Both the position numbers and the translations under genes were made by a program. 64,000 bases of DNA from Streptomyces sp. R41 (GTDB lineage: Bacteria > Actinomycetota > Actinomycetes > Streptomycetales > Streptomycetaceae): assembly GCF_041053055.1 (NCBI RefSeq), contig NZ_CP163443.1:1054001-1118000 (forward strand), read 5' to 3'. The notes under the pieces were generated by a model. It saw only the letters and a program-made list of their open reading frames with translations. It was not told the DNA's origin and did no database searches. This document shows, one piece after another, positions 1,495 to 4,680 of the stretch. Numbering within the stretch: position 1 is the first letter of the stretch; the number at the start of each line of letters is the position of its first letter.

Positions 1495-1698
1495 GATCCG
1501 GTTCGACTGCCAGCACCGTGGCGACGGCGGTCCGCTCGTGGTCGTCCCCCACATCGACGGAGCACCACTCACCGGGCTGATCGACGGGTTCGAGATCGCG
1601 GCTGGGATGCAGCCTGCAGGTGATGCGTACGGCGGTCCGATCCCGAAGTTCTTCCGGTTCGGTCCGATGCAGGACCACTTCCTCGGACTGTCCACTAG
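1490..1698 (+). pseudogene. Hypothetical protein, 5' part, interrupted by the IS1182-type element
   Basis: This frame begins NEIRFDCQHRG and runs through AAGMQPAGDAYGG and FFRFGPMQDHF up to an IS left end. Its reading frame is recovered exactly at 4433-4680 if the 2.7-kb insert and one CTAG copy are removed. The join reads ACT-AGC-GCG-ATG. The joined protein resembles a family of about 150 residues seen in Streptomyces, with no function I can name. No in-frame start codon is visible just upstream. A good ribosome binding site (AGGAGGG at 1451) precedes a GTC in another frame, so the 5' end may carry its own frameshift. Function is not inferred. Confidence 0.65.
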
Positions 1699-1836
1699 GA
1701 GCGTGGGTCAGTAACGGGCAACCGGCCGGTGGTCGGGTCGGCGGTTCACTGCGGTCGCCTGGTGAGTGGCTTCGGGACTGGTGAGGTGGGCGGCGGTCCT
1801 GGGATTTCGGTGCTTGGGGCTGGTCGGCCCGGCTGG

Positions 1837-3339
1837 TCAGGCAATCGCTGCGGTGATGCCGGCGCTTCCGACGTGCCGGAAGATCTTGCGGAGGTTGTGG
1901 CAGGCGGCCAGCAGGCGCCACTCGCCTCGGGCGCCGTCTTCACCGCGTAGGAGGAGCTGGCGTCCGCTCTGGCAGGTCATGATCTGACCGAAGGCGGGTT
2001 CGACGATGGCCTTGCGGCGGCTGTAGGCCTTGCGGCCGGGCTTGGTCCGCAGTTTGCGTGCCATGCGCTCTTTCAGCGTGGCGTCCTTGGGGATGCGTCC
2101 GCGAGGTGCGGGCGTGACCTGCTCGTCGTGGGCGAGTCGGCCGGTGGCCATGAACGTGTCGGTGCCGCAGGCCAATTGCCGGTCCTTGGCGGCTTCCAGG
2201 TTGACCTCGGAGCAGTATCCGGCGTCGACGAGGGCCTGCTCGGGGTGGGCGCCAGTGTTGGCCGCGGACTGGTCGAGCATCGCGGTGTAGTTCAGCGTCG
2301 GAGGGATTGCAGGTCACGTCGGCTGCGGTGATCACCTGGTGGGCCTCGTCGACGACGGCCTGGGCGTTGTAGGCCTGGATGTAGGCGCCGTCGCTGTTCT
2401 TCATGATCCGCGAGTCGGGGTCGGTGAAGTTGGCTTGGGCCTGGCCTTGGCGGCGGCCTTCTCGCCGGCGTTGGTGACGGCCTGCTCGTCGCTGGTACCG
2501 GCTCGTTCTTGGCGGCGGCGTTCGGTGTCCTGCGCGTGGCGGCGGGCCTTGTCGGCGACCTCGGCCTCGATCTGGGCGCGAGCGGCCTGCATCCTGGCCA
2601 GGCGCTTCTCGCGGCGGTCGAGTTCGCCGGGGAGGTCCACGTCTTTGCCGTCGGGGCCGAATGCCTGGTCCTCGGCCGCATCGGTGGCCTCGGCGTCGGC
2701 CAGCAGAGCCCGGGTCTTGGCCTCCAGGTCGGCGATCTCGGCTTCGACGCGCTCTTCTTTGGTGACCAGGCGGCCGTAGCTCATCGCCTTGTGCTTGGAG
2801 GCATTGGCTTCGGGCTTGGTGCCGTCCAGGGCGACGCGGCCCATCTTGACCATGCCCAGCTTCTGCGCGAGGTGCAGGGACTGGGTGAACAGGTCGGCGA
2901 GAGCGTCCAGGTGGCGGCGGCTGAACCGGGCGATCGAGCGGTAGTCCGGTGCCTGGTCGGCGGCCAGGAACCGGAATGCGACATCGTCCACGCACTTGCG
3001 CTCGATCGACCGGGACGAGCGGACGCCGGTGGTGTAGCCGTAGATCAGCAGCCGCACCATCAGCCGCGGGTCGTAGGTCGGGTAGCCCCGCTTCTCGGTG
3101 TAGTCGGCCAGGACCGGTCCGAGGTCCAGCACGTCGTCGACCAGCTCGGCGACGAAGCGGGCCAGATGGTCCTGGGGCAGCCAGTCGTCCAGCGACGGCG
3201 GCAGCAGCAGGACCTGGTGCGGGTCGAACGACCTGAATCGCTTGTCCACCGCCGCCGCACGACGTGGCGGCTGTTTGCCCTCGACTGGCTCGACCTCGAA
3301 CAGCCCCTCCTGATCGCGCATACCGGGATCATCCCGCAC
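1837..3339 (-). pseudogene. IS1182-family transposase, two frameshifts
   Basis: The coding sequence is spread over three minus-strand frames. The N-terminal 300 residues begin MRDDPGMRDQEGLFEVEPVE and include RFRSFDPHQVLLLPPSLDDW, ALDGTKPEANAS and a Glu/Arg-rich insert. A 1-nt loss near 2430 shifts into FTDPDSRIMKNSDGAYIQAY. A second shift of about 2 nt near 2300 leads to DAGYCSEVNLEAAKDRQLAC and a C-terminal block with RKAIVEPAFGQIM. These are the usual IS1182 DDE transposase blocks in order. Two independent frame changes argue for decay, or for sequencing error, rather than programmed frameshifting. If real, the element cannot move by itself. Confidence 0.8.
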
Positions 3340-3421
3340 AACTGATCACCAGACGCACGCGGGTTGCCGGTCACTCTGAGCATTGCAGCTGGCTGGCCCA
3401 CGGCGGCGCGTGCGCCAGCCG

Positions 3422-3802
3422 TCAGGCGTCGAAGCGGCGGCGGGCGGCCTCGATGTGACCGAAGTACTGGTGGGTCCAGCCGCACATTCCGTCGACCGTT
3501 GCGCGCAGGGCTTGACCCGGCTCGGTGAGGGTGTATTCGACCCGCGGTGGGACGGTGGGGTGCACGGTGCGCTCGACCAGGCCGTTGCGCTCCAGCATGC
3601 GCAGGTTCTGGGTGAGCATCTTGTGGCTGATGCCCTCGATCTCGTTCCGCAGCTCGCTGAAGCGCAGGGTGCGATCACCGAGACCCTCGACGATGAGGAA
3701 CGCCCACTTGTTGGCGACGTCGGAGAAGATCTCCCGCGCCAAGGAGCCCGCACGCGCCAGGTCTGCATCCTCGGGCGAGCCTGTGAACTGCTTGGTCACC
3801 AT
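3422..3802 (-). CDS. HxlR-family winged-helix transcriptional regulator
   Basis: The 126-residue protein has the compact HxlR fold: a helical start (REIFSDVANKWAFLIVEGLG), the recognition region LRFSELRNEIEGISHKMLTQ, then the wing LVERTVHPTVPPRVEYTLTE. HxlR proteins act as dimeric DNA-binding regulators that usually control a divergent neighbour and often sense reactive electrophiles or redox state. It is transcribed away from the ridA-type gene with a 141-bp gap holding a candidate operator. The start is ATG preceded by GGAGAA. It lies inside the IS element between transposase and right end, so it moves as cargo. Control of the neighbour is inferred from layout. Confidence 0.85.
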   Translation of the reverse strand: MVTKQFTGSPEDADLARAGSLAREIFSDVANKWAFLIVEGLGDRTLRFSELRNEIEGISHKMLTQNLRMLERNGLVERTVHPTVPPRVEYTLTEPGQALRATVDGMCGWTHQYFGHIEAARRRFDA

Positions 3803-3848
3803 AAGGTTCTCCAGTCACTGAAAAGTGCGTTCTTCCACGTCAGCGTCA

Positions 3849-3883
3849 ACTCTCTTACAGTTCCTGAGTAACCACAAGAGAGT
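3849..3883. promoter_or_regulatory. Candidate HxlR operator, 8-bp inverted repeat
   Basis: ACTCTCTT at 3849-3856 and AAGAGAGT at 3876-3883 are perfect inverted arms, 19 bp apart, in the gap between the divergent hxlR-type and ridA-type genes. The site lies 47 bp from the regulator start and 61 bp from the ridA start. Binding by the neighbouring regulator is an inference from position and symmetry. Confidence 0.45.
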
Positions 3884-3943
3884 GAGCGTCTTGGTCGGCG
3901 CGGACGCAAGCCCACAGGCGCTCAGGACGAGGAGACAGGCAGC

Positions 3944-4351
3944 ATGGCCATCACCTTTATGAACCCCAGCGGATTGCCCAAGATCGACGTCTACCGGCAG
4001 GTGTCGATCGCATCCGGGTCGAGGCTGGTCTTTATCGCCGGGCAGGTCGCCTGGGACGCCGAGGGAGTCACGATCGGCGAAGGCGACCTCGCCGCCCAGG
4101 TCGAGCAGAGCTATCTCAACGTCGGCACCGCCCTGGCCGAGGTCGGTGGCTCCTTCGACGACGTGGCGAAGCTGACCTTCTACGTCGTCGACTGGACCCC
4201 CGACAAGATGCCCCCGCTCCTGGAAGGGATCTCCCGGGCAGCCGCGAAGCTGGGGATCACCCCGGCCCCGCCGACCACGCTGATAGGCGTTGCGGCACTG
4301 GATGTCCCCGACCATCTGGTCGAGATCGAAGCCACCGCGGTCCTCGACTGA
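3944..4351 (+). CDS. RidA-family protein (YjgF/YER057c/UK114)
   Basis: The 135-residue protein is the usual size for RidA trimers, which hydrolyse reactive enamine/imine intermediates such as 2-aminoacrylate or act on related substrates. Family features include the early strand block PKIDVYRQVSIASGSRLVFI followed by AGQVAWDAEG. The middle has VEQSYLNVGTALAEVGGSFD followed by VAKLTFYVVDW, and the end has PPTTLIGVAALDVPDHLVEI. A canonical archetype RidA carries a catalytic Arg near residue 105. The equivalent position here reads PPTTL, so it is probably a non-archetypal Rid subgroup. It is divergent from the HxlR regulator and ends 81 bp before the element's right inverted repeat. The metabolic target is unknown. 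Confidence 0.85.
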   Translation: MAITFMNPSGLPKIDVYRQVSIASGSRLVFIAGQVAWDAEGVTIGEGDLAAQVEQSYLNVGTALAEVGGSFDDVAKLTFYVVDWTPDKMPPLLEGISRAAAKLGITPAPPTTLIGVAALDVPDHLVEIEATAVLD

Positions 4352-4432
4352 ACAGGTGCTCTCTGCCACTGAGCCAACTACGGCGCTCAGCGGCCAACCA
4401 GCGTGCTCAGTCACAGTTACTGACCCACGCTC

Positions 4433-4680
4433 CTAGCGCGATGGGGCCGAAGACACCCGTTCTCGGTTGTGAATGCGGCGAGTGGGGGTGCTGGCCGCTC
4501 ATGGCCCGCATCACCGCGACGGCGGACCTCGTAACCTGGGATGCCTTTGAACAACCGCACCGCAAGACCCGCGACTACGTGGCATTCGGTCCGTTCCAGT
4601 TCGACCGTCACCAATACGATGACGCCTTGCGGGCCCTGAGCGCTGTGATCGGCTCCGACGCCGACGGCACGCGCGCATGA
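4433..4680 (+). pseudogene. Hypothetical protein, 3' part, interrupted by the IS1182-type element
   Basis: This is the continuation of the frame that ends at 1698. It encodes MGPKTPVLGCECGEWGCWPL, then ARITATADLVTWDAFEQPHR, and ends in YDDALRALSAVIGSDADGTR. The ATG at 4441 is internal to the original gene. The CECGEWGCW cluster suggests a metal or structural Cys site in the intact protein. The in-frame restoration across the CTAG duplication is exact, so the insertion is recent enough for the two halves to remain readable. Confidence 0.7.

Follow-up and report, generated by a model that had tools for sequence, protein, structure and literature searches.

Does a gene pair found inside an insertion sequence (IS) represent ordinary cargo of that element, or did it arrive there as a mobile element in its own right? 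This question is raised by a 64,000-nucleotide stretch of the genome of Streptomyces sp. R41 (contig NZ_CP163443.1, positions 1,054,001 to 1,118,000; hereafter, the window), which contains an IS1182-type unit that encloses a divergent pair of genes, hxlR and ridA (Table 1). A first reading made from the letters of the window (the sequence-only reading) had regarded the pair as a complete detoxification-type module packaged as IS cargo. The comparisons with other genomes and loci (numbered G and L, respectively) described here suggest instead that the unit is likely to have two mobile layers, in which an hxlR-ridA cassette with Tn7-like ends became nested in the right end of an IS1182 element and was then carried by it.

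The 2,734-bp unit and its insertion site

The perfect 17-bp inverted repeats and the CTAG on both sides were found as described in the sequence-only reading. Together they form perfect inverted arms of 21 nt (positions 1695–1715 and 4416–4436), and the right repeat is identical to the left at 17/17 positions, which argues, as far as tested, against its belonging to a separate element. Exact copies of the 17-mer in the 10.46-Mb home genome are confined to the two ends of the unit (one further place has 2 mismatches), and the unit itself is single-copy, the three other matches being short pieces with 68–74% identity. When the flanks were joined with one CTAG, they aligned without gaps to empty sites in G048 (468 bp, 94%, with the single CTAG present), G242 (449 bp, 91%, with CCAA instead of CTAG), and G090 (427 bp, 88%), and more distant relatives likewise lacked the insert. 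The host reading frame was restored across the joined flanks, as had been proposed, and the empty site of G048 lies in an open host open reading frame (ORF) of 153 codons. In G048, where the host gene is uninterrupted, the listed hxlR-ridA match is located approximately 0.92 Mb away, so the possibility that the pair is always a neighbour of the interrupted gene fails as far as tested. Because the ends are perfect and bordered by CTAG, the unit is single-copy, the empty sites align without gaps, and the host frame is restored, the unit is, on these comparisons, a real insertion. Only a weak hairpin was detected at its right end (z -1.42).

CTAG is the target of the IS1182 family. Judged by its transposase, its inverted ends with CTAG, and its empty site, the carrier belongs to this family. 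The two transposase pieces, which lie in separate ORFs, match the Pfam models DUF772 and DDE_Tnp_1_6 and the IS1182 model NF033551 (182 and 81.7 bits, each below the 270-bit whole-protein cut-off), and three Streptomyces plasmid relatives with 83% DNA identity carry an IS1182 annotation. In two respects the window unit is unlike the family: it is about 1.0 kb longer than the cassette-less related elements, which measure 1.49–1.71 kb (G022, G369, G166, G372, and G284), and its transposase is broken. Of the gene set that the sequence-only reading had listed, the divergent regulator/RidA pair was confirmed and the transposase proved to be frame-broken; its breaks were seen against the Streptomyces hokutonensis copy, which is likewise frame-shifted, near the C-terminus, and relatives with open 505-amino-acid IS1182 transposase ORFs exist. 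CTAG was present on both sides of 14 of the 15 two-ended elements, the window included, and the fifteenth had CTAG/CCAG; 13 of the 15 were found without requiring CTAG, and it was present in 13/13. A single IS copy was taken from each of G022 and G369, in which 8 and 9 end pairs, respectively, were counted.

The sequence-only reading had named recurrence of the full 2.7-kb unit at different loci as a confirming test, and such a second locus was found. In S. hokutonensis (L065, NZ_BARG01000086.1), the whole unit lies between CTAGs at another locus (2,752 bp, 97.5% identical over ungapped columns). A scan for the right-end junction in one genome per species (84,980 species) yielded five loci, so that, with G188 and the window, hxlR-ridA lies against the right end at seven loci. 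The pairs at the six other loci are 94.4–98.9% identical to that of the window, and no similarity was found between any two of the seven 600-bp right flanks. The outer IS end is followed by CTAG at five of the seven loci, by CCAG in S. dysideae, and by CTGG in LBL, and the 17-mer differs at a single position in each of LUP47B and G188. Both IS ends are kept in the window and L065 only, most of the IS having been lost at the other five loci. With its IS1182-type ends, CTAG duplication, empty site, and second full copy, hxlR-ridA has, by sequence comparison, moved as a unit inside one pair of IS ends. In this it resembles the transporter IS, a term used with mobile insertion cassette (MIC) and miniature inverted-repeat transposable element (MITE) in excerpts of PMC3129680, in which genes unrelated to transposition lie between IS ends. 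It differs in that the passenger is bounded, in relatives, by the ends of another transposon type with their own target duplication.

A second pair of ends within the right end of the IS

In S. hokutonensis, LBL, and LUP47B (L065, L068, and L038, respectively), the gene pair has its own 22-bp inverted ends, TGTGACTGAGCACGCTGGTTGG (a type also written by its start as TGTGACTGAGCRCG...), and a GTTAC duplication inside the right repeat of the IS. The order at the three loci is IS sequence ending in GGTTAC, TGTGACTGAGCACGCTGGTTGG, hxlR-ridA, the inverted copy, and then GTTACTGACCCACGCTC, and the cassette spans 1.06–1.08 kb; in L038, the two inner ends and the IS end each carry a single mismatch. 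The cassette-less IS copies run straight through the insertion site, reading ..GTTACTGAGACACGCTC (G022 and G369) or ..GTTACTGACCCACGCTC (G166); therefore, GTTAC was duplicated, and its right-hand copy completes the outer IS end. Given their own 22-bp ends and this duplication, hxlR and ridA form a second, nested mobile element, and the idea that they are simple IS cargo gives way. Because all three loci share one junction, the nesting represents one event. The left cassette end was also found next to hxlR, with one mismatch, in G139 and G124, where no IS1182 was seen.

By sequence, the unit has two layers: an IS1182-family element with 17-bp ends occupies a CTAG target in the host gene, and a transposase-less divergent cassette lies inside its right end. 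Because the duplication coincides with the first 5 bp of the right IS repeat, the old end was split by the insertion, yet a complete 17-bp end was rebuilt outside the cassette. This insertion may have occurred a single time, through a Tn7-like transposase that worked in trans on the TGTGACTGAG... ends of the cassette, and the lengthened IS1182 would then have spread hxlR-ridA among several Streptomyces species, mostly to CTAG sites. The window copy is probably now immobile on its own, because its transposase is broken and its left cassette end is lost. Its movement would presumably require an IS1182 transposase in trans, and the home genome shows partial family matches only (20 matches to the IS1182 model, none above the cut-off).

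A direct capture of hxlR-ridA by the IS as an ordinary passenger (a transporter IS), with the inner repeats incidental, is improbable. It would agree with the related IS1182 elements whose slot is occupied by other genes and which lack such inner ends: when the inner end was scanned in 14 IS1182 elements besides the window, none was found in 10, and it was found only with 4–5 mismatches of 18 in G074, G325, G361, and G211. Yet incidental repeats would not account for inverted 22-bp ends with an exact 5-bp duplication at three loci, nor for the related ends that define other transposons (see the next section), and the simple passenger reading was rejected on finding the inner ends and GTTAC.

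We give very little credence to the pair being a composite-transposon remnant, in which hxlR-ridA once lay between two IS1182 copies, the second of which has been reduced to its right end. The perfect match of the right end to the left (17/17), the part of the old right end kept to the left of the cassette, and the resemblance, by eye, of the inner end GTGACTGAGCACGCT to the IS1182 end GTTACTGAGACACGCT would suit such a remnant, but the GTTAC duplication is exact, the inner ends are related to Tn7-like ends, and no IS1182 sequence was seen between ridA and the outer repeat. Inward-pointing IS1182 ends, considered for this similarity as the source of the inner repeats, were set aside once related ends with 5-bp duplications appeared on Tn7-like elements. 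Equally remote is recombination between the IS1182 and cassette ends, which are alike over about 13 bp by eye, in place of cassette transposition, since it would not be expected to produce a precise 5-bp duplication whose register matches that of the other end pairs.

Table 1. Features of the unit and its surroundings in the window
Feature	Positions	Strand	Remarks
Interrupted host gene, 5' part	1495..1694	+	
CTAG target duplication, left copy	1695..1698		
IS1182-type unit with hxlR-ridA	1699-4432		2,734 bp; bounded by perfect 17-bp repeats with CTAG outside each
IS1182-type left terminal repeat GAGCGTGGGTCAGTAAC	1699..1715	+	
IS1182-family transposase, frame-broken	1837..3339	-	Split into 2401-3339 and 1837-2280, with breaks near 2430 and 2290
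IS stretch from transposase start to original right end, which is truncated here	3340..3371	+	Boundary by comparison with L065, L068, and L038
hxlR-ridA cassette with TGTGACTGAG-type (Tn7-like) right end	3372..4415	+	Left end missing here, present in L065, L068, and L038
hxlR, HxlR-type winged-helix regulator	3422..3802	-	126 amino acids
Near-symmetric operator candidate (CTCTCTT ... AAGAGAG)	3850..3882		Core largely conserved; 22 distinct divergent pairs aligned
ridA-like gene (Ribonuc_L-PSP)	3944..4351	+	135 amino acids; the UK114 arginine is apparently absent
Right cassette end, inverted copy of TGTGACTGAGCACGCTGGTTGG	4394..4415	-	0 mismatches
IS1182-type right terminal repeat	4416..4432	-	Begins with GTTAC (5 bp, 4416-4420), the copy of the cassette target duplication that survives here
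CTAG target duplication, right copy	4433..4436		
Interrupted host gene, 3' part	4437..4680	+	ORF 4441-4680 without Pfam match

Tn7-like relatives of the inner ends

A search for the inner end in 384 genomes gave matches at ≤3 mismatches in 91, including an unrelated recurring sequence, GTGACTGATCACACTGTTTGG, which the pattern matches with 3 mismatches in many genomes. Twenty chosen places were fetched from these matches, and because they were picked for having such ends, no frequency is claimed. Related ends with identical 5-bp flanks bound units of 10.0 kb (G370), 14.1 kb (G081), 4.9 kb (G215), 3.5 kb (G123), 1.65 kb (G145), 1.62 kb (G254), 1.18 kb (G313), and 0.59 kb (G114), the ends of which differ from the hxlR-ridA end at 1–7 of 22 bases. 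In total, 11 of the 19 candidate end pairs had identical 5-bp flanks (three belong to the shared hxlR-ridA event, leaving nine independent sites), as opposed to 0/19 at each of seven control offsets. Loci L001, L005, L006, L017, L058, L063, L064, L066, L070, and L102–L104 were left out of this test as duplicate or overlapping.

The two largest units are Tn7-like transposons. That of G370 encodes a TnsA-like endonuclease (above the cut-off of NF033179 and below that of the Pfam model), an 853-amino-acid protein that has no Pfam match and whose best solved relatives are named TnsB (8rdu and 7svw; E 5e-10), and a TniB and two TniQ proteins, all three above their cut-offs; tandem tniQ/tnsD genes in Tn7 elements are mentioned in the part of PMC10293859 consulted. 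The five transposition proteins of G081 are 81–92% identical to their G370 counterparts, and the 14.1-kb transposon (L106 2065-16185) also has genes best matching type I restriction hsdR, hsdS, and hsdM, all below the curated cut-offs. Like Tn7-like transposons (TnsA, TnsB, TnsC/TniB, and TniQ), the hxlR-ridA cassette has TGT...ACA ends and a 5-bp duplication, and its end has 21 of the first 22 bases in common with the right end of G081 and the first 14 with the left end of G370; unlike them, it has no transposition genes. Because of this similarity, we infer that Tn7-like proteins may move GTTGGCC-type cassettes in trans. TnsA-like genes were found in 124 of 199 genomes, 98 of them above the cut-off; therefore, possible helpers are common in Streptomyces, and the home genome contains two TnsA-like matches (best E 1.4e-19).

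MICs hold a gene in place of the transposase. The hxlR-ridA cassette resembles this class, which is named in excerpts of PMC3129680, in having no transposase of its own and in its presumed activation in trans by a related one. It differs from them in that its ends are Tn7-like, not IS-type, and in being nested in another element.

Several observations weigh against this history. The window has only the right cassette end, and both the two inverted ends and the GTTAC duplication rest on three relatives that share one event; an hxlR-ridA cassette with both ends and a different duplication was not found. Eight of the 19 end pairs lack matching flanks; in seven of the eight, one end has 7–8 mismatches of 22, and the eighth has 5 + 5. 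The ends of the cassette continue GTTGGCC, whereas those of both Tn7-like elements (G370 and G081) continue GTTGTCAC. Ten TnsA loci were examined for a complete Tn7-like element bounded by GTTGGCC ends, and none was found; most of the ten have no TGTGACTGAG-type end close by. One of these ends lies near a TnsA in G158, but the TnsA-bearing element has different ends of its own. A TniQ search of the home genome gave no match, although the search control gave no match anywhere either.

The G158 element (L129 1893-11615) is 9.6 kb long, has TGTCCTGTCGCAC ends and a CATGG duplication, and lies 83 bp inside the TGTGACTGAG-type end. Among the smaller units, that of G313 contains a 209-amino-acid ORF without a Pfam match and is the strongest candidate for a small derivative of Tn7-like elements, because it shares the GTTGTCAC type of ends with the Tn7-like element of G081. 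Two units with TGTGACTGAG-type ends and no transposase (L118 3399-5049 in G145, with a CCGCC duplication, and L121 1948-3572 in G254, with CCGGC) each carry a full-length EF-Tu gene, the two proteins being 92% identical; a mobile extra tuf gene might matter for antibiotics that target EF-Tu. The 592-bp unit of G114 (L124 2937-3528) has a barstar-family gene, ends with 7 and 2 mismatches of 22, and a GCAGC duplication. The 3.5-kb unit of G123 contains a PhyH dioxygenase and an AraC/GyrI regulator, and the 4.9-kb unit of G215 (L107 1851-6712, CCTCG duplication) has patatin-like, metallo-beta-lactamase-fold, and IS481-like genes.

The hxlR-ridA pair and other IS1182 passengers

The HxlR domain of the regulator is clear (PF01638, 99 bits against a cut-off of 20.8). 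Divergent hxlR-ridA pairs are common in Streptomyces: in a search of 392 genomes, at least about 110 of the matches listed cover approximately positions 1720–2655 of the query (a hand count). The symmetric operator candidate noted earlier holds up as a near-symmetric intergenic motif, close to CTCTCyTACrGTTCCTGAGTAACCACAAGAGA, that is largely conserved in an alignment of 22 distinct pairs. To judge from family and layout, HxlR probably controls the divergent ridA from this site.

It is doubtful that the pair has been kept for protecting the host from reactive imines, with RidA detoxification under a redox-sensing HxlR. The HxlR and Ribonuc_L-PSP families, together with a divergent layout and intergenic motif kept across the genus, would fit this role. 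However, when the RidA-like protein was aligned with UK114 (PDB 6tcc), a threonine stood opposite the arginine that we take to be the catalytic residue of RidA deaminases; the alignment has low certainty there, and that with 3r0p pairs the region otherwise. The matches of HxlR to redox_TF_RrpB and RrpA were also far below their cut-offs. Because the protein seems to lack the usual arginine, detoxification is unproven and the earlier label of a complete detoxification-type module is questionable; the pair may be described as a regulator-controlled RidA-family protein, with detoxification one possible function.

The sequence-only reading had called passenger genes unusual in IS1182 elements, which holds only in part: relatives yielded six other passenger types enclosed by two IS1182-type ends, and three more with the right end only. 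In relatives, the passenger slot lies between the transposase start and the right end. The two-ended types comprise a GNAT acetyltransferase (G362, assigned because its DNA is 91% identical to the G242 copy that was tested), a second GNAT type (G361, which was tested, and G074 and G123, which are 97–98% alike), TetR with DUF6463 (G325), DUF2992 (G089), ABM (G118), and a flavin reductase-like gene (G138). The last lies in a 1,050-bp unit (L092 5350-6399) with CTAG and no transposase, and its IS1182-type ends are 12/17 alike. G074 has further DNA inside the transposase, and G123 retains only a partial transposase. Those with the right end only are GNAT and SnoaL_2 (both in G242), a Beta-lactamase-family hydrolase (G211), and an MmyB-type regulator (G121). 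Two passenger groups, G242/G362 and G361/G074/G123, recur at dissimilar right flanks.

Somewhat better than evenly balanced, in our estimation, is the broader proposal that two gene-dispersal systems of Streptomyces meet at this locus: a Tn7-like family with small cassettes (hxlR-ridA, EF-Tu, barstar, and the 209-amino-acid ORF) and IS1182 elements with a single slot for diverse passengers. When a cassette inserts into the terminal repeat of an IS and its duplication rebuilds that repeat, a plain IS would become a gene carrier at a stroke. Gene mobility without composite transposons or integrons is only partly known, and among the matches listed in the open-licence literature, which covered titles and the starts of abstracts (subscription journals and ISfinder/TnPedia being outside the scope), there was no description of cassettes like these. 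The locus thus suggests a two-step route by which bacterial genes may become mobile, in which a gene pair lands in the end of another element and then travels along. Each stage is visible in the sequences compared: an IS end without the cassette, the cassette ends inside it with their 5-bp duplication, the carrier at a number of loci, and a CTAG site without the insert. The sequence of the cassette end also provides a handle for finding such cassettes in Streptomyces, including those with the housekeeping-type EF-Tu and the inhibitor barstar in units of 0.6–1.7 kb. Directly upstream of the interrupted host gene, the window contains a long ORF with a phage-integrase domain (4-1494, + strand).

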